The notes under the pieces are model-generated. The model saw only the letters and a list, made by a program, of their open reading frames with translations. It had not been told where the DNA came from and searched no databases. Made by a program: the position numbers and the translations under genes. Shown here piece by piece: positions 1-22,579 of a stretch of DNA of 41,023 bases. Source of the DNA: Actinomycetes bacterium. GTDB lineage: Bacteria; Actinomycetota; Thermoleophilia; BMS3ABIN01. Each line of letters begins with the position of its first letter. Position 1 is the first letter of the stretch. The DNA is taken from contig JAJYIM010000017.1 in the NCBI GenBank assembly GCA_021790115.1, positions 1-41,023 of the forward strand. Direction: 5' to 3'.

Positions 1-182
1 CAGCTAGCCGGCGTCTGCCAATTTAATAAATTGTTTTTTCGCGGGTGTGTTCACATGCCCGGGCGATTGCTTTTGTCTGCAGTAATTTACTGTATGCATC
101 GTGTTTCGGGCGCCTTAAATTACAGGCGCCTTTTTGCCAGGGAGCGTTTCTTCCCCAACCTTTAAAAAGGAAGCCGTCTTTC

Positions 183-1049
183 GTGAGGAACGCCAAATTC
201 CTGATAGCCGGCCTTGCGTTGGAGGTAAGCGCCGCTCCCGGATCCGGTGGTTTTGAGATTCCGGTCCCCTACCGTCCCTTCCTTGTCAACGATACCAAGG
301 CTGACTTCCTGCTTAATTCCCATAGCGATGGCATTCCTGCCTGGGAGGGGGAACTCGTCTTTGATTCTCGCGGCCCCTGGAAGCTGTGGCGTAGCCGGGA
401 AAAATATTTAATCTCCCTCCACAACCTGGCCCAGGGCAAAGACCCGTACCAAATTGCTTTCCTGGATGAAAAATTTAGCAGGGGGGAAACCTTTTTCAAG
501 CCGGAAATTGAAAACAGTTTGCCCCGGTTTTTTCCTTTTAGTTATCCGCTGGACGAGGTCATCGTTGTCAACCGCCTGGCGCTGGGGCAGGGGCTGGAAG
601 TCCATGCCTGCGGCATAGACGACAACGGCGGCGGCATTCTTTTTCTGGGCGCCTCGGGGGCCGGCAAGAGCACGATGTCGAGATTTTGGGAGACAGAGGA
701 CGGCGCTGCTGTTCTTAGCGACGACCGCATCATTGTTACCAGGCAAGATGGCGGCTTTTTTATTCACGGCACCCCCTGGCACGGCGAGGCCGGCCTGGCG
801 GCTGCCGCCGGCGCTCCCCTGAAATCAGTTTTTTTTCTAAAGCACGCCGCCGCCAACAGCCACGGCCGCCTGGGTCCGGGCCAGATCGCGGCGCGGATTA
901 TGGCCACCTGTTTTCCGACTTTCTGGAACCAGGCGGGCATGCAGTTTAGCGCCGGCCTGGCGGCCGAGATCGCGCTGGCCGTGCCTGGCTACGAACTCGG
1001 TTTTGCGCCCGGGCCGGCCGTGGTTGAATATGTCAGAAAGATACCATAA
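183..1049 (+). CDS. HPr-kinase-like P-loop protein (HprK-related)
   Basis: The protein has a Walker A loop GASGAGKST at about residues 156-164 and a following acidic strand LSDDRIIV, the arrangement of HprK/P-type serine kinases. The N-terminal half is not the HPr kinase N-domain but a region typical of HprK-related proteins found near PqqD-like chaperones and S24/S26 peptidases. That context is known for peptide-modification loci; the genes left of the window are not visible. The 3' end overlaps the next gene by 20 bases, suggesting coupled translation. The reading frame is open from GTG at 45. I prefer GTG at 183 because the preceding 46 residues are rich in Cys, Phe and Pro and look non-coding, although the AAGGA before 183 is rather far away (about 11 bases). 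The substrate is unknown; it need not be HPr. Confidence 0.75.
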   Translation: MRNAKFLIAGLALEVSAAPGSGGFEIPVPYRPFLVNDTKADFLLNSHSDGIPAWEGELVFDSRGPWKLWRSREKYLISLHNLAQGKDPYQIAFLDEKFSRGETFFKPEIENSLPRFFPFSYPLDEVIVVNRLALGQGLEVHACGIDDNGGGILFLGASGAGKSTMSRFWETEDGAAVLSDDRIIVTRQDGGFFIHGTPWHGEAGLAAAAGAPLKSVFFLKHAAANSHGRLGPGQIAARIMATCFPTFWNQAGMQFSAGLAAEIALAVPGYELGFAPGPAVVEYVRKIP

Positions 1050-3116: not shown

Positions 3117-5168
3117 TCAGCTGTATCTAATTGCCAGTTTTTTGGCCGTCGCGGCGACCAGCCGGCGCGGCTCCGCCGGCGACAGCACGATTGCCTCGCC
3201 GCCGTATTTAAGGACTTCCCTGGCCAGCCATTCATGGTTAAAATAGGGTATTTCATCAACAAGGCTGCCGTCTTCAAGCATCACCGCAGCCGGCATCCTT
3301 TCATTTACAAACCGGGCGGCGGCCGCCGAGAAATGCACACGCGCAACGAGCGGCGCCTCGCTGCCGGAGGGAAACTGCGCGTGGCGGTAACGGTCCAGAT
3401 CAATTTCGCGGGGTTGAAAGCGCTCGTCAAGAAGGGCGGCTTGTTTTATCATCCGGAAGCGGAAAATGCGCTCGGCCCCGGCCCGGCGGCAGAAGGAAAC
3501 CACGTAGCGCTCGCTACCGCGGCCGATGATCAGATAAGGCTCAATCCGGCGCTTGCGGGGCCGGTCGCTTGTCTCGGACAGAAAATCGATCTCGACCAGC
3601 CGGTGCTCTTCAATTCCCCTGGCGATGACGCCGGCGGTTGCGTCATCCCTGCCGGCCTCATGAACAATGATAGTTTGTCCATCGTCGACGCCGCCGCTGG
3701 CCTCGATGATTTTCATGCGGGCGCTCTTCAGTGAGCTGCTGCCCTGAGGCGCATGTTCTCCTACCAGGTCAATCGCCAAAAGTAGCGCCCGCGCTTCCAG
3801 CGGCGACAGGCGGGCGGGCTTTTTGAGCAGGTGGCCGTAAACGCAGCGCTCCACCCGCAATCTGCCGTCCTCGATATAAGCTTCAACCAGATAGGCGCCG
3901 GCGTCGATGCACACCAGCAGCAGCAGGTCGGTGTCCTGTTTGAGGCTGCCGATGCTCTCATAGCCGAGCCTGTCCGCCACTTCAGCCGCGGCGAGCTCGA
4001 TACTCTCCGCATCACCCAGGCGGTCTGTAAGATAAGCGCTAAGTGTCGACAGCCTGGTGAAGCGCTCCGGTTTGACCTGGCCGGGCGAGCCGGCTTCCGA
4101 CTGCGGCGGCTGTTTTACCGCCGCGGCCTTAATGGGCTTTGGTTGACCGCTATGCCGGGCTGCGATTGTTTCCAGCAGCTTGCCCATCATTTGCCTTAAG
4201 AACGCAGGTTTGATCAAGGTTGCATCGGATTCCATCCCCAGCACCAGCGAGCAGAGCTGTTTTTCATCTGTGTAGGCGGTGGCAAAGAGCGTCTCGCCAT
4301 CCCCGCCGGGCTCAAAGCTGCCGCAATGACCCAGCTCTCGCTCTATCCTCCAACTGATACGGGGGGAAAGGCTGACAACAGCCCTGCCTTTCGCCGGCCC
4401 CAATTGCCATGGCTCAAGGTTTTGGTAATGGCGCGGGTCAAAGTCTTCGGGCAGGATGAAATCGTGCGTTTTTCGAGTGGCGTTGTGAATTTTTCCCCCG
4501 ATGCGGCCCAGCTTGAAAACCCTGATGCCGGAGCGCTCATGGGAAAATCCGACCATGTACCAGTCTCCCCTTGAGATCATCAAGGCATACGGATCAACCC
4601 GGCGCTCTTCGGTCCTGTTTCGCGCCGCGGCGTGGTATTTAAAAACAATACTCTTGTTTTGAGCAATGGCATGCTCAATTTTCGCCAGGCGGCCGGCGGC
4701 GGCCCTGTCAATCGCCATTGGCAACAGGTTCAGGCTGATGTAATTTGGCTCCAGCGCCTCCAGCGGGCTGCCCGCCGCCAGAGCCAGCCCCTGAAGCGCC
4801 AGCCGCAACACATTGCTGTAGGCAAACTGGCCTTCCAGCAGCCAGAGGCAGGCGTTAAGCGCGGCCATCTCCGCCGATGAGAAATCAATTGGCGGCAGGC
4901 GGTAGTTTTCCGGCGGCAGCCAGTAGCGGGCGCTGCCGAGGAACTTGCCGCTCTGGCTTTCGTTGCCATCGCTCATGATTTCGATTCCCAGCCGGAGGAG
5001 TTCCGCCCGGTCGGCGTAAAAACGCCTGCTGAAGGTGTCATCGCTCATGCCGGCGTATTCTTCGACGCTGCGGCGGATATCCCACGCAGATGCCTTTCTG
5101 CCGGAAGCAGACATTAAACAGGCAACCAGTGACAGCTGCCGGATCAGTTTTCCTTTGTCAGACGAGAT
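3117..5168 (-). CDS. pafBC: PafB-PafC-type fusion: tandem WYL-domain transcriptional regulator
   Basis: A single protein of about 683 residues contains two copies of the HTH-WYL arrangement. The first WYL domain includes RRVDPYALMISRGDWYMVGF. The second includes RRIEPYLIIGRGSERYVVSF. Each is followed by the WCX-type C-terminal extension. Fused or adjacent PafB and PafC activate the LexA/RecA-independent DNA-damage response in actinobacteria. The first ATG in frame (5114) would cut off the first helix of the HTH: the frame continues upstream as KLIRQLSLVACLM, as expected for this family. No ATG, GTG or TTG exists between the upstream stop and 5114. An excellent AAGGAG (5175-5180) lies six bases before an ATC codon at 5168, which I take as the start. 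The gene faces away from the addBA group, consistent with a role in repair. Confidence 0.85.
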   Translation of the reverse strand: MSSDKGKLIRQLSLVACLMSASGRKASAWDIRRSVEEYAGMSDDTFSRRFYADRAELLRLGIEIMSDGNESQSGKFLGSARYWLPPENYRLPPIDFSSAEMAALNACLWLLEGQFAYSNVLRLALQGLALAAGSPLEALEPNYISLNLLPMAIDRAAAGRLAKIEHAIAQNKSIVFKYHAAARNRTEERRVDPYALMISRGDWYMVGFSHERSGIRVFKLGRIGGKIHNATRKTHDFILPEDFDPRHYQNLEPWQLGPAKGRAVVSLSPRISWRIERELGHCGSFEPGGDGETLFATAYTDEKQLCSLVLGMESDATLIKPAFLRQMMGKLLETIAARHSGQPKPIKAAAVKQPPQSEAGSPGQVKPERFTRLSTLSAYLTDRLGDAESIELAAAEVADRLGYESIGSLKQDTDLLLLVCIDAGAYLVEAYIEDGRLRVERCVYGHLLKKPARLSPLEARALLLAIDLVGEHAPQGSSSLKSARMKIIEASGGVDDGQTIIVHEAGRDDATAGVIARGIEEHRLVEIDFLSETSDRPRKRRIEPYLIIGRGSERYVVSFCRRAGAERIFRFRMIKQAALLDERFQPREIDLDRYRHAQFPSGSEAPLVARVHFSAAAARFVNERMPAAVMLEDGSLVDEIPYFNHEWLAREVLKYGGEAIVLSPAEPRRLVAATAKKLAIRYS

Positions 5169-5216
5169 GCCCTGCTCCTTCTGGAAAACCCAAGCTGCGG
5201 CCGGCGTAGATTTATC

Positions 5217-5238
5217 TGTCCGGGCCGGCGGTTATGAT
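5217..5238 (+). promoter_or_regulatory. Candidate PafBC-dependent (RecA-NDp-like) promoter
   Basis: The sequence reads TGTC (5217-5220), then 12 bases, then TATGAT (5233-5238). The known actinobacterial RecA-independent DNA-damage promoter has TTGTCRGTG, eight bases, then TAnnnT, which places TGTC exactly 12 bases from TAnnnT. The first part here, CTGTCCGGG, matches six of nine positions. It lies in the gap between the pafBC regulator and the genes leading to addB/addA. The motif is short, so a chance match is possible. Confidence 0.35.
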
Positions 5239-5279
5239 TGCATTCAGATTGTAGTCCTTAACCGACCAACGGGGAAGCG

Positions 5280-5501
5280 ATGAGCGCAGAATTGTATTCC
5301 GATCTGTGGTTTGTTTTTGGGGTGGCCTGCCTGGTGGCAGGCGGGCTGGGGACGGCATACTGGCTGTGGCTGACGGGGGCGCCCGAAGAGCCTGCTTCCG
5401 TTGGCACCGATGAAGACTTGCCGGCTGATCCCTGTACCGGCAGCGCCGGCTTGTTCTGCTTCGCTTGCCGGGAAGACAGGCGTAGGAAGACAAGCGTATA
5501 A
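5280..5501 (+). CDS. Small membrane protein of unknown function
   Basis: A 73-residue protein with one clear hydrophobic segment at about residues 10-31 (FVFGVACLVAGGLGTAYWL) and a short acidic then cysteine-containing tail ending in RRRKTSV. GGGGAAGC just before ATG 5280 can serve as ribosome-binding site. It is the first gene after the pafBC divergence point and precedes a second small gene and addB, so it may belong to the same transcript. I do not recognise the family. The coding case rests on the start context and the membrane segment; the opposite strand also has open frames. Confidence 0.45.
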   Translation: MSAELYSDLWFVFGVACLVAGGLGTAYWLWLTGAPEEPASVGTDEDLPADPCTGSAGLFCFACREDRRRKTSV

Positions 5502-5772: not shown

Positions 5773-8700
5773 TTGTCTTTTAGTATTATATGTGGTCCAG
5801 CGGGATCGGGCAAAACCACGCGCGCCATCGAGGCCTTTCTCGCCGCGCTTGACCGTGGCGACAACCCGGTGTTCATAGCCCCCAGCGGCCCGGATGCGCG
5901 GCATTTTCACCGGCAGATCTTGCGATCTGCCGGTGACGGGGCAGCTCCGGGAGTTTTATCAGGCGGCAGGGTAACTACCTTCGCCGGCCTCTGCTCGGCC
6001 ATTCTGACTGCCAGCGAGCCAGAAACCAGGATCATCGGCGCCAACGAGCGATTCCTGATCCAGCAAGCAATTGTCGATTCCACGAACCTCAAGGCCCTGT
6101 CCCGGTCTGCTTCGTTTGACGGCTTTGTCCGCGCTTTCGGAAAGCTGGCAGCCGAGTTGGCGTCACTGGGGGTAAACGCCGCCGGTTTGGGCAAGATCCT
6201 CCGCTCGTGGGCCGGTGGCGACGAGTGGCGGCAGGGGCTCAACAAAGACCTTTTCCGTTTGCTCGAGCGTTACGAGGCCGTGTTGGCGGATACCAGGATC
6301 AGCGATGGCGAGCGGGCGCAGCGGCGCGTGCTGGCCGTGTTGGACAGTGACGCGGACGCCTTGGGGCACAGGTCTGTCATCATTGACGGGTTTTGGGATT
6401 TCACGCCGCTTGAGCACGATCTGATTGCGCAGCTGCGCCACACGGCGGATGAAGTCATCGTCACCTTGCCGTATGTTCCCGACCATCCGGCCTACATGGC
6501 GCCATCATACCACTTAAAGCGACTTAATCAACTGGCAAACAGCGAGCCTTTGCTGCTGGAGCCGCCCAGCAAAACCGGCCGCAGCCCCGCCCTTGACCAT
6601 CTGGCCGCCAGCCTTTTTAAAGAGGAGCCGGCCAGGGTGCCGGCGGCTGGCAGTCTGCAAGTCCTGACCGCCGCCGGCTCTCGCGGCCAGGCGGAGATTG
6701 TCGCCGCCGAGGTCCTCAGGCTCTGGCGGGAAGGCCAGGACCTCGACGGGATCGCTGTTATGGGCCGCAGTCTCGGCCCCGATCTCTACGAAATATCCGC
6801 GGTCATGGAGGCGTACGGCATTCCCCACGAGCTTGCCGCGCCGCTGCCGTTGGCCCTGACGGCGGTGGGCAAGACGGCACTGGCCTTGCTTGATTTTGCC
6901 GGCGGCAGCCGGTCGCGAGCGAGCCTGCTTGCATATCTGCGCAGCCCCCTGTCAGATCTGCCACTCTCAAGCGTTGACGAGTTTGACAGACATTGCCGGC
7001 GTCACGGGATTGAAGCGTCGGGTGATCTTTTTGATGAATGGCGGCTATTTGGCGGCCGTCCACTTAACGAAATCAGCCGCTTGACAGGCGCGGCGGCAAA
7101 AGGAGCCGGGGAGCTGGGCAGCGAGCTTTGCGGTTTCCTTCAAGGCTTGCTTACGGGTCCGGGGCCCGGGACCGGTTCTTCTGCGGCAACCCTGAAATGC
7201 GACTTGCCCGCTCTGGAAAGCCTGCAGTCGTTGTGTCAGGAAGCCGGAAAGATCGGGCAAGCGTTTGCGGGCAACGGTTATCATACGCCGCAAGGGGGCG
7301 ATGGCGCCGTCCGGGTCCTAACGCAGGCTATCAGGCAGGCGGTGGCGAGAGCGCCCGCGGCAAGAAGCCGGCACTGTGTCCGCATCCTCGACCCGCACCG
7401 GATTCTCAACCAGCTCTTTGACATCGTATTTGTGTGTGGGATGGTGGAAAAACAGTTCCCCAATCTTGGCCGCGAGGATTCTTTTTTTCCCGACAGCGAG
7501 CGCCGCGAGCTTGCCGTCAAATATGGCCTCGGCCTGGGTAGCCGCGAGCGCCGGCTTGATCAGGAGCGCTTCCTTTATTTTCGCACCTTGAGCCGCGCCC
7601 GGCGGCGTGCTTATCTCTGCTTTCCCTACTGTGACAAAGAAGGCAAGCCATCAATATCTTCGCTGTTTGTTGATGACACTACCCGGCTTTACGACAAAGA
7701 CTCGGCCACGGTCAGGGAAAGGAAAATCGGCGACCGTGTTTTTCCACCTGGTGAAGCGCCGACCACAGGCGAGGCAATCCGCTCGTTGGCCGCCTGGTCC
7801 CGGAACCAGGGCGGCGATTCAAAAAAGGAGCTGATTGGCAGCAATCCGGCCGGGCTCGGGAAGCGCTTGGCGGCGTGCCTGAGCGTTGGCCTGGCGCCGG
7901 ACGCGGTAATCTCCGACCGGGAGATAATCTCAACACTTGAAAAAAGGGCTGGTTTCCAGGTTACGGGGCTGCAAACCTACCTGCGCTGCCCGTTCCGTTA
8001 TTTTGTCGAAACCGTGCTGGCGCCGGCGGAGATAACGCCGCTCGCCCACGGGCTCAAGCGCGGCCGCGTGATTCACGACATCCTCTGCAGGTTCGGCTCC
8101 CAGCTGAAGCGGTCGGGCCTCTATCTGAATGCCGAGGCTACGCAAACGCAAATCGATGAAGTCAGGCGCCAGATGTCAGCTTTCATCGAAGAAGAATTTG
8201 TGGAGGCAGGTTCCGATCTTGCCACGATAATTCTCAAAAGCGAGCTTGAATTCCATCTCAACCGTTACATTGACAGGGAGATAGCAACTGACCGGAAACT
8301 AAAGTACTTTGATTTCGAGGTTGGATTTGGCGGCGCCCCCGGCAAGTGCGGCGGCAAGAGCAACACGGAAAACGTTTTACCCATGGGCGACTTTCATCTT
8401 ATCGGCAGGCTTGACCGCGTCGATTGGGAGGGCAGCAGCAGCCGCGCCCTGGTCATCGACTTTAAATCGTCAAGGTCAGCGACTTCCCAGTCCGACTTCG
8501 AGAAGCGAAAGGAGATCCAGATTCCCCTGTACATCCTGGCGCTCAGGGAGGCTTTTGGCCTGGAGCCGGTCGGAGGCGAGTACTATGCGCTCCGTGGCGA
8601 TAAAAGGGCCGGCCTCTACCTGGCGGGATGCGAGGATATCATCGGAGCGGCGTCGGCCCGGACCGCCGGTAAGGACATCGTTGACCGGGAGCAGTTTGAA

Positions 8701-8868
8701 GAGCACTTGGCGATGGCTAAAACAATGGCGCGCGAGGCGGCGGCCGGAATCCGCTGCGGGGATTTCCGCGCGCAGCCCTTGGACAAAAAGGATTGTGAGT
8801 GGTGCAGCCTGGATGGCGTCTGCCGCCTGGCTGCCGCCCATAGGCCGGAAGCCGGCGGCGATGGCTAA
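5773..8868 (+). CDS. addB: AddB-type helicase-nuclease subunit with Fe-S nuclease domain
   Basis: A 1031-residue protein. It starts with a Walker A motif GPAGSGKT (residues 8-15) in a UvrD/Rep-like fold that otherwise lacks standard helicase motifs, as in AddB. The C-terminal third is a PD-(D/E)XK nuclease: GRVIHDIL, LDRVDWEG and VIDFKSS carry the catalytic positions. Four cysteines (Cys739 in CPFRYF, and Cys1008, Cys1011 and Cys1017 in CEWCSLDGVC) match the iron-sulfur staple of AddB. The AddAB complex resects double-strand breaks for RecA loading. The start is TTG 5773 with GGAG seven bases upstream. It overlaps addA by eight bases, indicating translational coupling. Confidence 0.9.
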   Translation: MSFSIICGPAGSGKTTRAIEAFLAALDRGDNPVFIAPSGPDARHFHRQILRSAGDGAAPGVLSGGRVTTFAGLCSAILTASEPETRIIGANERFLIQQAIVDSTNLKALSRSASFDGFVRAFGKLAAELASLGVNAAGLGKILRSWAGGDEWRQGLNKDLFRLLERYEAVLADTRISDGERAQRRVLAVLDSDADALGHRSVIIDGFWDFTPLEHDLIAQLRHTADEVIVTLPYVPDHPAYMAPSYHLKRLNQLANSEPLLLEPPSKTGRSPALDHLAASLFKEEPARVPAAGSLQVLTAAGSRGQAEIVAAEVLRLWREGQDLDGIAVMGRSLGPDLYEISAVMEAYGIPHELAAPLPLALTAVGKTALALLDFAGGSRSRASLLAYLRSPLSDLPLSSVDEFDRHCRRHGIEASGDLFDEWRLFGGRPLNEISRLTGAAAKGAGELGSELCGFLQGLLTGPGPGTGSSAATLKCDLPALESLQSLCQEAGKIGQAFAGNGYHTPQGGDGAVRVLTQAIRQAVARAPAARSRHCVRILDPHRILNQLFDIVFVCGMVEKQFPNLGREDSFFPDSERRELAVKYGLGLGSRERRLDQERFLYFRTLSRARRRAYLCFPYCDKEGKPSISSLFVDDTTRLYDKDSATVRERKIGDRVFPPGEAPTTGEAIRSLAAWSRNQGGDSKKELIGSNPAGLGKRLAACLSVGLAPDAVISDREIISTLEKRAGFQVTGLQTYLRCPFRYFVETVLAPAEITPLAHGLKRGRVIHDILCRFGSQLKRSGLYLNAEATQTQIDEVRRQMSAFIEEEFVEAGSDLATIILKSELEFHLNRYIDREIATDRKLKYFDFEVGFGGAPGKCGGKSNTENVLPMGDFHLIGRLDRVDWEGSSSRALVIDFKSSRSATSQSDFEKRKEIQIPLYILALREAFGLEPVGGEYYALRGDKRAGLYLAGCEDIIGAASARTAGKDIVDREQFEEHLAMAKTMAREAAAGIRCGDFRAQPLDKKDCEWCSLDGVCRLAAAHRPEAGGDG

Positions 8869-11800
8869 AAAAATCAAGCTCACTCCCCAACAAAGGCGCG
8901 CAATTGAGACCCTTGAAGGTCCGCTGTTTGTGGCCGCGGGAGCCGGCTCCGGCAAAACCGGTGTTGTTACCCGCCGGTTCGTGCACGCGGTTGCTTCCGG
9001 CTACGCCAGGGTGGACCAAATCCTCACCATCACCTTTACCAAGAAAGCCGCCGCGGAGATGATGGCGCGGATCCGTGAGCTGCTCAGCGGGCGCGAAAGT
9101 ATTGGTGTACTGGACGACGCCGCAAAAGAGCGGATGTCGGCTGCCTGCCGCGAAATCGAGCGGGCCCGCATCAGCACCATCGACGCCTTTTGCGCATCGG
9201 TTTTGCGCACGCATGCGCTCGCCACCGGCATCGACCCCGACTTTGCCGTCGTTGACGGTTCGCAGGCGGCCATGATTCAGGAAGAGGTCTTCGATCCAAG
9301 CCTGGAGGCGTTGATCAAGAAATACGGCCCGGCGGCGGTAGAGTTCATAACCGCCTACGACCCCAACATGGACGGATCCCTGTTTAAGGCGGTTACAAAA
9401 GCGCAGGCGACGCTGCGCAGCCAGGGCCGGCAGGTAACCCTGCCGTGCCCCGGGCCGCCGGACATTGATGGCGCAAAGCGCGATCTGCGCGAAGCGGTGC
9501 GCGAAGCCCGCGCCGCCGTTGCCCAAATTGCCAAGCCGAACAAGGATCAAGCAACCGGTATCAGCAGGCTGGAGCGGCTGGAGCAGGCTCTGGCCGAGAC
9601 CAATCCCGTCAAGCAGATCGAGCTGGCGGAAACAGGCGAGGTCAAGTTCAAGAAAATGGGCCCGGCACGTGAAGAGTTCTCCCGGCTGGAGCTTCCGCGC
9701 CTGGCGCTGCTTAACGCGCTGCGCTCGCGCGAAGCGGCGGGAACGCTCAATCTCTTCCGTGAGCTGCTGGAGCAATTCCACTCTAGCTATTCAGAAAAGA
9801 AACATGAGGCAGGCGTGATGGATTTTGCCGATCTGGCGCTGCAAACCAGAGACTTGCTGAAAAGCAGCATCCGGGCCCGCAATCAAATGTCATCATCGTT
9901 CCGGCTGGTGATGGTCGATGAGTTTCAGGACACAAATCCGCTGCAGTTTGACGTCATCAAGCGGGTGGCGGGCAGCAACCTCTTTATCGTCGGTGATGAG
10001 AACCAGGCCATCTACGGGTTTCGCGACGCGGAGGTGGCGTTATTCCAGCAAGAGAAGAAAAAAGCCCGGGAGCATGGGTATTTGGTCGAGCTGGAGGACA
10101 ATTTTCGCAGTCAGCGGGAGATCATCAGGTTTGTCGACCATGTCTTCAACCGTGACGACATGCTGTCGCCGGGATATCTGGAGTTGAACCCGGCTGTGGC
10201 AGCCGACGCGGAGAAAGAAGATTGCCGCATCGAGATAATGCTGGTTGACTGCCGCCGCGACGAAAAAAAGGTGGGGCTGAAAAGGATCAACAAGGAAGTT
10301 ACCCGCCCGGCGGAAGCACAGCTGATCGCGAGGCGGCTGCAGGACCTTTTCGCACAGGGTTATGCGCCGGGTGACGCCGCTATTCTGCTTAGCACTTCCA
10401 CTGACGCCGAGGTCTACCGCGACGCCCTCACCCAAGCAGGGATTGAAAACCACTTTTCCGTGGGCAAAGGTTATTTCAGCAAGCTGGAGCTTCACGATGT
10501 GGTAAACATGTTCAAGCTGATTATCAACCCACTTGACGATCTTGCCATGCTGGGCGTGTTACGGTCACCTTTGACAGGGTTAAGCGACAATGCGCTCTAC
10601 TGGCTGTATCATGCAAATGCCGGCAAAAAAACAAAGCAATCCGCCTGGCTCTCGCTGCATTCTCTGGAAAGGCTGGAGCGCCTGGACAAGGCCGACCGGA
10701 AGAAAGCAGCCAGGTTCATCTCCTGGCTTGAGGAGCTTCGCAAGGAAGCCGGGCGGTTGTCGCTCCGGGAGCTGGCGGAAAAGGTGATCAATATCGACGA
10801 TTACGCTGCCAAGATAGCGGCCGGCCCCAACGGAGAACAGGGTTTTGCCAACCTGATGAAACTGCTCGACCTGGCAAGTGATTTCGAGGCGGCGTGGAGC
10901 AATGATCTTGCTAGCTTCACGCAGTTTCTCGAGCGGCAGAAAACCACCGAGTCAGGTGAAGCAGAGGCGCCAATGGAGGCAGAGGGAGCGCAGGCGGTCC
11001 GGATCATGACCATGCACAGCGCCAAGGGCCTTGAGTTTCCATTGGTGGTGCTTCCAAATCTGCAAGCTTCAGGGAAAGGAAAAAATAATGCGCCGGTGCT
11101 GCTGTTTGACCGCAGCGGCAAAAACCGCATCGGCTTGAAATACAAGACCGACGGCAGCGGCAGCGGCGATGCTTTTGACTATGACGAGCTGTGGCAGGAG
11201 GAGGTCAGGAGGTGCAACCTGGAATCAAAACGCCTGGGATACGTTGCCATGACCCGGGCCGAGAAGCACCTTATTCTTTCCGGAGTTGCCCCGGCCGACC
11301 GGCTGCCGAAAAAAGACAAACAGCACGATCCTCCGTTCGACTGGTTGCGCAACATTTTTAATCTTAAGTGGCCGCGGGATGAGAACCTGGGCAAGGCCGG
11401 CCGCCTTGACCAGATCAAAGGCTCAGCAGTCAGGCTGCATATCTGCACCGATGCGGTGAAGGCCGCCGGGTCCGGGCTCCCAGGGCCGGCTACTTCCAGG
11501 CCGGAGCCGCCACGGGTAAATGCCGGGATTGCCAGCCTGCCGCAGCCCGCCATTTATGTGCCGCCGGAAATCTCACCCACGGCGCTGGATACCTTTAAGG
11601 CCTGTCCGCGCCGTTACTTTCTCGACCATGTCTTGCACGCCGGTGATATCTTTCCGGTGAAAGGTGAGCGGACAGGCAGTGACGACGATGGCCTGTCGGC
11701 TACTCAGTTAGGCCTGCTGGTGCACGGCGTACTGGAAAATGAGGATCTGGAGACAATCACGTCAGCGCCGGCAGCTAATGAGGTTTTTGACAAGCACGCC

Positions 11801-12397
11801 AGGCGTGTGGTGGAAATAACGACAGGGTTGAAACAGCGCGACTACGAGCGCGCCCGGCGGCTGATCGGCAATTTCAGCCGCGCTCCGGCCGCGCAGGCAT
11901 TGTGCCGGGCAGCGGCGGCAGGCGCGCTGGCCAGGGAGGTCCCCTTTTCCACGCTTGTTGGCAACACTATTATCCAGGGGCAGATGGACGCGATGCATCC
12001 CGCCGGGTTCGGCGGAAGCCCGGAAAAAGACGGCATCATCATCGTTGATTACAAGACTGGCGTGGCGAGAATGCCAGAGAAGCCCGGATCAGATACGCTT
12101 CCCTACCGCCTGCAAACGGCGGCCTACGCGCTGGCGGCGGCGCGCATGCAGGCCGGACCGGTGCGCGTGATCCTGATCTATCTTGGTGGGGATGAGCCGC
12201 TGGAAGTCATCCAGGATTATGAGGCCGATCAGGCCGCCGTGATCGAGAGTGAGCTGTTATCAGTGATCGGCAGCATGAGCGACGGCAGTTTTCCGCCCCT
12301 GGATGAGTTTGACGCGTATTACTGCACCTGGTGCTCCGGCGGCCCCCGCTGCGCAGGCCTCTGCCCAACCGGAGCGAGGATTGGTCAAAATAGATAG
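8861..12397 (+). CDS. addA: AddA-type UvrD helicase-nuclease subunit
   Basis: A 1178-residue protein with a complete set of SF1A helicase motifs: Walker A AAGAGSGKT near residue 25, DEFQDTN (motif II), GDENQAIYGFRDAE (III), MTMHSAKGLEFPLVV (V) and VAMTRAEKHL (VI). The C-terminal nuclease domain has LVHGVLE, QGQMDAMH and IIVDYKTG. It also has four cysteines: Cys915 in CPRRYF, and Cys1155, Cys1158 and Cys1164 in CTWCSGGPRC. This is the arrangement normally noted for AddB, so both subunits may carry an Fe-S cluster. ATG 8861 lies within the last codons of addB; the frame is open upstream to 8309, but that part is a shadow of addB. A palindromic repeat follows 63 bases after the stop. Confidence 0.92.
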   Translation: MAKKIKLTPQQRRAIETLEGPLFVAAGAGSGKTGVVTRRFVHAVASGYARVDQILTITFTKKAAAEMMARIRELLSGRESIGVLDDAAKERMSAACREIERARISTIDAFCASVLRTHALATGIDPDFAVVDGSQAAMIQEEVFDPSLEALIKKYGPAAVEFITAYDPNMDGSLFKAVTKAQATLRSQGRQVTLPCPGPPDIDGAKRDLREAVREARAAVAQIAKPNKDQATGISRLERLEQALAETNPVKQIELAETGEVKFKKMGPAREEFSRLELPRLALLNALRSREAAGTLNLFRELLEQFHSSYSEKKHEAGVMDFADLALQTRDLLKSSIRARNQMSSSFRLVMVDEFQDTNPLQFDVIKRVAGSNLFIVGDENQAIYGFRDAEVALFQQEKKKAREHGYLVELEDNFRSQREIIRFVDHVFNRDDMLSPGYLELNPAVAADAEKEDCRIEIMLVDCRRDEKKVGLKRINKEVTRPAEAQLIARRLQDLFAQGYAPGDAAILLSTSTDAEVYRDALTQAGIENHFSVGKGYFSKLELHDVVNMFKLIINPLDDLAMLGVLRSPLTGLSDNALYWLYHANAGKKTKQSAWLSLHSLERLERLDKADRKKAARFISWLEELRKEAGRLSLRELAEKVINIDDYAAKIAAGPNGEQGFANLMKLLDLASDFEAAWSNDLASFTQFLERQKTTESGEAEAPMEAEGAQAVRIMTMHSAKGLEFPLVVLPNLQASGKGKNNAPVLLFDRSGKNRIGLKYKTDGSGSGDAFDYDELWQEEVRRCNLESKRLGYVAMTRAEKHLILSGVAPADRLPKKDKQHDPPFDWLRNIFNLKWPRDENLGKAGRLDQIKGSAVRLHICTDAVKAAGSGLPGPATSRPEPPRVNAGIASLPQPAIYVPPEISPTALDTFKACPRRYFLDHVLHAGDIFPVKGERTGSDDDGLSATQLGLLVHGVLENEDLETITSAPAANEVFDKHARRVVEITTGLKQRDYERARRLIGNFSRAPAAQALCRAAAAGALAREVPFSTLVGNTIIQGQMDAMHPAGFGGSPEKDGIIIVDYKTGVARMPEKPGSDTLPYRLQTAAYALAAARMQAGPVRVILIYLGGDEPLEVIQDYEADQAAVIESELLSVIGSMSDGSFPPLDEFDAYYCTWCSGGPRCAGLCPTGARIGQNR

Positions 12398-20852: not shown

Positions 20853-22579
20853 ATGATGAAGTTCGCTGCGGAAAAGTCCAAGCTTTTTGCCTGCCTAGGC
20901 TTGATTGCAATAATTTCCTCACTTTTTTTCTTGCCACTGAGCTGCGGCGGCCATGGTTCGGGTATTATTCTGGCCAAAATCATGACTGGTTAACTGCCAG
21001 CACTGTAACATTTGCTGATAATTGGTATAGAGAAGGAATTTGGAACCTCAGGTTTGGCCTGTACGAGCTGCCTAAATCTCCGGAGTTGTCAACGCAATGG
21101 AGCCGAATGCCATATCTTTCATATCCGCCCGGGGCTGTAATCCCGGTTTTTCTGACCAGCGAGATAATGAATCACGCGCCCACAGTTGGTTTGGTGATGT
21201 CTGACGATCTTGTTAACGGGTATCTGGTAACGCTTTTTCTCTCTCTGACCGTTTTCTTTTTTCTTAGGCGGTTGCGGCTCAGCGCCAGACTTGCCTTCCT
21301 GTTTGCCTTGATTCCAATCCCGCTGGAGCTGTTTTTACCAGAGCCCTTTTACTATTTTCAGAATTCCTTTTTTACGGATCAGGCCGTGATTCTGCCTTTT
21401 GTCCTGGTGGTGTTTCTGGAAGTAATCAGGGAGGGCCGCCAGGAACGCTCCCGGCGAATCATTGATTTGCTTCAGGCTCTCGTTTTTTTCTACGGGGCAT
21501 TTACTGATTGGTTTTTTGTTTTTGTCGCATTCATTTTTTATCTGGACAGGTTATTCTTCAGAGAGATCCGTTTCCGCCCCAAGAAAGAGTTTTTCAAGGG
21601 CAGTTTAAAATTTGCGGCGCCGCCACTGGCTGCTGTTTTGGCATTCTTGATTCAGATAACGGTGATGATGTGGGGGAACCTTGGGGATGCTGCCAAGTGG
21701 ATTGAACATAAATATGTTGTGCGATCGGGACTGAGTGGTTCAACCAGCGAGCTTCACGGAGGCGGCGGCTACCTCCGCAATATCGCCAGATCGGCGAAAG
21801 CAGGCTATGGCCTCTTCGGGTTGGGCGTTATTGCCGTCACAGTCTTGTTTTCCGTCGGAATATACCTTTTTGTCAATTGGAGAAAAAGGCAGAAACGGAA
21901 TGTGGCGCCGGAAGTTCAATCGATTGCGCGCCTTTCTTTTGTTGTTACTGTGCCGTGCGTCCTGCAAATATTGGTTTTCTTGAACCACTCCGCGGTCCAC
22001 AGTTTTTCGGTATTGAAGCTTTCTGTGCCCATTGCCATCGTCCCCTTCGTATTGGTGCCGGTGACACTAGTGCTGTTGCTGAAGCCAAAAAATGGGACCG
22101 GAGGATCTTCCCAGTACATGTTTATTGCTTTCATCGGCGCTTTTTTACTAGCCGGTTTTTCAATTGCTCAGGCCATTCCTGAATACAATCACTTTTTTTA
22201 CCCCAAGAATACTATTTGGTACCGAATTGTTGACGTTACAAATGAGCACACTGCGGCTAACGATGTTGTTTTTTCTCCAGACATGGAGGTTCCTTATCAT
22301 CCGCCGCAGCTTGTTTCCCTGACAATGAAAAGGGTTTACCGGGTCAAGACCGTTGGCGACATTATTCAGGAGATACAAAATGCGCTAGGCGATTATCGCG
22401 TCGTAATCATTTTTTGGAATAAACCGGCAGCGGGGAGCTATTGGGATAAGGCGGTGTCAGCCGCCGACAACACGCTTGAGGATGGTGCTTTTTATTGTTA
22501 TTATGGCGTCGGCGGGGTAAAAAAATTGGAATCTGAGTATAATGGCTGGCCTTCTTTCGTCCCCGGGCCTCAAACGTAG
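20853..22579 (+). CDS. Polytopic membrane protein (possible GT-C glycosyltransferase), apparent frameshift
   Basis: The main open frame (from TTG 21086) encodes about 497 residues with around eight membrane segments, but homology-like coding continues upstream without a start. ATG 20853 opens the other part: MMKFAAEKSKLFACLGLIAI, a first membrane helix. The two frames would join exactly if the T7 run at 20933-20939 had one more T, giving LFFLATELRRPWFGYY followed by SGQNHDWLTASTVTF. A His-Asp pair in the first outer loop resembles the catalytic acidic residue of GT-C transferases such as the PMT/ArnT families; this is inference. ATG is three bases past the propeller stop, so the pair probably forms an operon. 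As written the gene is broken; sequencing error, slippage or real decay are all possible. Confidence 0.6.

Follow-up and report, generated by a model that had tools for sequence, protein, structure and literature searches.

A conserved AUC or AUU codon as the very probable translation start of a fused pafBC gene in a Thermoleophilia genus

Where does translation of a pafBC gene begin when its reading frame offers no canonical start codon ahead of the first DNA-binding helix? This question is raised by contig JAJYIM010000017.1 of a Thermoleophilia bacterium, of which a stretch of 41,023 nucleotides, referred to below as the window, was analyzed. The gene lies on the minus strand and its frame ends at a stop codon at position 3117. 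Pfam matches to its product include WYL in two stretches (E value, 2e-30), WCX in two stretches (E value, 4.7e-24) and, mid-protein and just below the cutoff, HTH_PafC (E value, 9.9e-7; 29.1 bits versus a cutoff of 32). The best PDB match is PafBC 6sj9 (query residues 31 to 673; E value, 4.6e-24), and the PafB chain of 9fnd is matched by phmmer over query residues 6 to 225 (E value, 4.2e-17). NCBIfam gave no family match, and no relative was encoded in any of the viral contigs. Judged by these similarities, the product is predicted to be a fused PafB-PafC protein, the single-stranded DNA (ssDNA)-activated transcription activator of the DNA damage response.

Table 1. Features of the pafBC region, with positions in the window.
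Feature	Position	Strand	Basis or remark
pafBC, predicted fused PafB-PafC, 683 amino acids counted from the ATC	3117..5168	-	Pfam and PDB matches
First canonical ATG, rejected as start	5112..5114	-	Within HTH helix 1 (VACLM); ATA in G002
ATC, very probable initiation codon of pafBC	5166..5168	-	Genus conservation; homology to starts outside the family
Shine-Dalgarno sequence AAGGAG	5175..5180	-	Sequence; 6-base spacer (5174-5169) before the ATC
Putative RecA-NDp-like (PafBC-type) promoter, TGTC-N12-TATGAT	5217..5238	+	Points toward divergent addB and addA; located in the presumed leader of pafBC
Putative -10 box of pafBC, TACAAT	5248..5253	-	TANAAT in 6/6 aligned
Small predicted membrane protein	5280..5501	+	ORF; first gene divergent from pafBC; membrane nature judged by eye
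AddB-like helicase/nuclease	5773..8868	+	Pfam ADDB_N, PDDEXK_1
AddA-like helicase/nuclease, start unrefined	8870..12397	+	Pfam UvrD-helicase, UvrD_C, PDDEXK_1

The minus strand around the start reads ...TTTTCCAG AAGGAG CAGGGC ATC TCG TCT GAC AAA GGA AAA CTG ATC CGG CAG CTG. Upstream of the ATC, the pafBC frame stays open for 21 codons, back to a TAA at 5234-5232. The initial annotation placed the probable start at this ATC, six bases behind AAGGAG, in an open stretch without ATG, GTG or TTG. Upon re-reading the sequence, coordinates and spacing proved exact, and none of the three codons was found in the pafBC frame from the TAA down to the ATG at 5114. The proposed start itself is backed by conservation of the codon as ATC or ATT, by the pattern of substitutions around it and by the exclusion of other starts, as set out below. 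We therefore consider it very probable that translation initiates with fMet at AUC 5168, directed by AAGGAG, a judgment that concerns the start codon alone, apart from any low protein level or control by initiation factor 3 (IF3).

To compare orthologous starts, a check that the initial annotation had named, 60 related genomes were searched for pafBC and 59 gave a match. The family comprises 19 genomes (18 with a match), six of which, including that of the window, form the genus (G000 to G005). In all five genus members with the gene, the homologous codon is ATC (G000, G002 and G004) or ATT (G001 and G003), never AUG, which bears out the proposed start. In none of the five does an in-frame canonical start occur in the interval from the preceding stop codon to the HTH, and each carries a Shine-Dalgarno-like stretch 6 to 8 bases ahead of the codon, uneven in strength (just AAGG in G003 and G004). 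The sixth genome, G005 (92% complete), had no match for pafBC or addB and is uncounted; both genes are either lost there or unassembled. In the sister genus, G011 has ATT at the same codon, but an ATG seven codons on could be the start instead, and a poorly spaced Shine-Dalgarno sequence adds to the doubt about the ATT; G011 was kept out of the firm count. The remaining family members have canonical starts further upstream, wherever the N terminus is present.

Outside the family, the homologous codon was read in 69 loci (L047 to L115) as ATG (30), GTG (25), TTG (9), CTG (4) or ATT (1), so that it is one of the first four in 68 of them, and in most loci it is followed by S-H-D-x-D-K-LIRQL. The single ATT (L102) is ambiguous, with a GTG two codons before it. 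Three of the CTG loci (L056, L075 and L083) lack any in-frame canonical start, and in the fourth (L068) the sole canonical alternative is a TTG lying 37 codons before the CTG. In the phmmer alignment, residue 6 of the AUC-started protein pairs with residue 6 of the 9fnd PafB chain, and the ATC therefore falls on residue 1. On the pafBC tree (80 rows; L113, a short row, was dropped), a branch with a support of 99 separates the ATC and ATT loci of the genus and G011 from all others.

The substitution pattern marks the same boundary. Among the five genus sequences, pairwise differences at the first, second and third codon positions amount to 0.10, 0.08 and 0.46 per codon in codons 1 to 18 and to 0.61, 0.65 and 0.64 in the 17 preceding triplets, which were compared without gaps. 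This three-base periodicity from the ATC/ATT on indicates that coding begins at or very near there. It also bears on the proposal that translation starts at ATG 5114, the first canonical codon of the frame (or at an ATG 40 codons in), yielding a PafBC without its first HTH helix. Such a product is very unlikely: purifying selection is seen on codons 1 to 18, upstream of ATG 5114, homologs start at the ATC position instead, and G002 has ATA in place of ATG 5114, its first canonical codon being an ATG at codon 40. Moreover, the HTH of PafB touches the promoter in the solved complex, as reported in PMC11804915. A CTG start at the KLI motif was likewise rejected, as CTG occurs there only in G000, G001 and G002, with CTT in G004 and CTC in G003.

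Translation might also start upstream in another frame and shift into that of pafBC, which would make the isoleucine internal. Short frames with canonical starts do overlap the ATC/ATT codon in G000, G001, G002 and G004, and if initiation took place upstream by some unknown route, the isoleucine codons ATC and ATT would look no different from what is observed. In G003, however, no frame of the other two phases that opens with ATG, GTG or TTG extends to the ATT codon, so that no canonical route leads into pafBC there even with a frameshift. In G004, a stop lies 10 codons upstream of the ATC, and none of the intervening codons is a single base away from ATG. The overlapping frames vary between species in start, frame and peptide, and the DNA upstream of the ATC/ATT shows no coding periodicity; a shifted start is very unlikely as well. 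That the AUC is really an AUG miscalled in sequencing or assembly can practically be dismissed. The assembly of the window is fragmented (63 contigs), but four other species, in the separately named assemblies JACWAD, JAJYLW, JACWAM and JAJYXB (Thermoleophilia/Actinomycetes metagenome-assembled genomes), carry ATC or ATT at this position, and such an error would have had to recur in all five genus species with pafBC.

How unusual an AUC/AUU start is within the genus was gauged from a gene-pair control, in which stop-to-stop frames from the window and 19 sampled stretches of G000 were compared with those from 19 stretches of G001 and two earlier ones. Fifty-two pairs were kept, of which two fell below the score limit and were left unjudged. 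Among the 50 judged, 40 had a canonical start near the conserved N terminus in both genomes and 10 were flagged. Inspected by eye, the flagged pairs were pafBC, a frameshift gene, two probable selenoprotein genes (TGA), three pairs with an ATG just beyond the cutoff, two likely shadow frames and a pair at window positions 30-1046, flagged for its G001 partner and left without an assigned cause. Setting this last pair aside, pafBC is the only flagged pair without another visible explanation. In a published survey of 36 genome triplets, 1 of 61,358 ancestral AUG starts had switched to AUU (PMC5622118).

The same comparison brought up other irregular frames. At window positions 20853-22579, an N terminus resembling that of a membrane protein (MMKFAAEKSKLFACLGLIAIISSLFFL) is out of frame with a conserved body (ATELRRPWFGYYSGQ...); the two frames meet near CACTTTTTTTCTTGCC, and G001 has the same break, for which a programmed frameshift or slippage is a possible cause. 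In-frame TGA codons precede conserved bodies in L152 (2806-4317, minus strand) and L156 (14672-15256, minus strand); their G001 counterparts lie in L174 and L170. From their contexts (FWKGQ-TGA-QGCRREAP and YSDYI-TGA-PWCYIG), these two genes are probable selenoproteins; SelB was found above the cutoff in all six genus genomes.

If pafBC starts at AUC or AUU, what would such a start do? The closest likeness is sigR of Streptomyces, also an actinobacterial stress response regulator with a genus-conserved noncanonical start and a Shine-Dalgarno sequence. The two differ in codon (ATC/ATT in pafBC, GTC/GTT in sigR) and in product, a WYL activator versus a sigma factor. Starting at GTC, sigR is reported to be repressed by IF3, and changing its codon to a canonical one deregulated the response; this repression was measured for sigR and is extended to pafBC by analogy (PMC5472188). 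The infC gene likewise initiates at AUU in Escherichia coli and AUC in Streptomyces, but it is the autoregulatory gene of IF3 itself, which pafBC is not (PMC5472188). In Staphylococcus, cvfC1 starts at AUU and ccpN at AUA; these are conserved AUH starts too, one of them on a transcription regulator with an N-terminal HTH, but unlike pafBC the two genes have extended Shine-Dalgarno sequences and serve carbon metabolism rather than the DNA damage response. In Staphylococcus aureus, AUU and AUA starts were reported to yield about 10% of the output of AUG in one medium (PMC13009471). The PafBC proteins of Arthrobacter and Mycobacterium share domain order, start position and perhaps promoter type with the one described here (PMC6789036, PMC11804915, PMC5656591), and differ in having a conserved initiator methionine, or a probable GTG start in the case of A. 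aurescens (PMC6789036).

Conservation of AUC/AUU across the genus suggests that PafBC is deliberately kept at a low level. IF3 would reject most initiation complexes on this codon, and PafBC output would be low for that reason, much like that of sigR. The damage signal would then act on the protein, through ssDNA in the WYL domains, and not on its synthesis. In mycobacteria, the level of PafBC is reported to stay constant under damage while ssDNA activates the protein (PMC11804915), with which a fixed low synthesis rate fits. By analogy with the measured cases it is fair to infer, as the initial annotation suggested, that a weak start could limit how much of the activator is made; a regulatory role of the start is likely, and a low level controlled by IF3 through AUC/AUU seems to us somewhat the better bet. 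The gene for IF3, infC, is present in all six genus genomes (partial in G002). No leader RNA fold stronger than those of shuffled sequences was found in the five genus leaders (z-scores, -0.18 to 1.56).

Alternatively, the AUC/AUU start may be real but merely tolerated drift, devoid of regulatory meaning. This deserves serious attention, although we do not favor it. ATC and ATT could be explained by one origin on a single branch, and the CTG starts elsewhere on the tree, which require at least three changes, suggest that pafBC starts are loosely constrained. On the other hand, prokaryotes are reported to actively favor AUG (PMC5622118), and a hand count on the tree gives at least two C/T changes of the third base within the genus (three if G011 is included) and none to G, a weak argument given so few changes. 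Returning to the regulatory reading, the conserved weak start suggests that low PafBC dosage matters.

A second noncanonical start involves IF3 itself. Among the infC loci of the family (L124 to L138, with L131 from the genome of the window; L133 was unmatched by the pattern and L139, partial, was unused), all 14 matched by pattern have a strong Shine-Dalgarno sequence, GGAGGTG, followed by an invariant GTC. In half of them (7/14) no in-frame canonical start lies upstream of the GTC; L124 and L128 even have a TAG two codons ahead of it. In the genus of the window, a TTG two codons ahead could serve as the start instead. The infC gene of this family appears, from its sequence, to start at GTC; a search of open-license literature found no paper on a GUC start of infC. 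It is tempting, though doubtful, to link the GUC-started infC with the AUC/AUU-started pafBC of one genus into a DNA damage response gated by initiation fidelity. If true, PafBC would rise when active IF3 falls, priming repair with no need for a new transcription signal.

Bacterial genes with a noncanonical start conserved throughout a lineage are very few (infC, sigR, cvfC1 and ccpN), and pafBC adds a DNA damage activator to them. The pcnB gene of E. coli reportedly belongs with them as well. Both pafBC and this Thermoleophilia genus would be new to a kind of start codon control that is already known; in open-license literature, no paper title on a noncanonical pafBC start or a rare start of a WYL gene was found. 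In practical terms, gene callers limited to ATG, GTG and TTG would cut the DNA-binding helix from PafBC.

The region upstream of pafBC hints at what the activator may control. The plus strand at 5217-5238 (TGTCCGGGCCGGCGGTTATGAT) is the sole match of the promoter pattern in the window. It agrees in spacing with the published RecA-NDp motif (tTGTCRgtg-8 nt-TAnnnT; PMC5656591) and has C after TGTC where R is expected. A pattern of the form YGTCCG-N10-TANNNT, divergent from pafBC, occurs in 16 of 17 family loci versus 0 of 8 scanned outside the family; since it was written after 6 of the 17 had been seen, the independent count is 10 of 11. The motif faces the small membrane protein gene, which has homologous frames in G001 and G002, followed by addB and addA, a plausible target of PafBC. 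Genome-wide, the PafBC-type motif occurs 12 times in G000 versus 13 for a reversed control, so this count alone is uninformative. One identical PafBC-type motif, TGTCCGAATCACGCTGTATAAT, is found at G000:C14:25806-25827 and G001:C30:54331-54352 and represents a candidate second regulon promoter.
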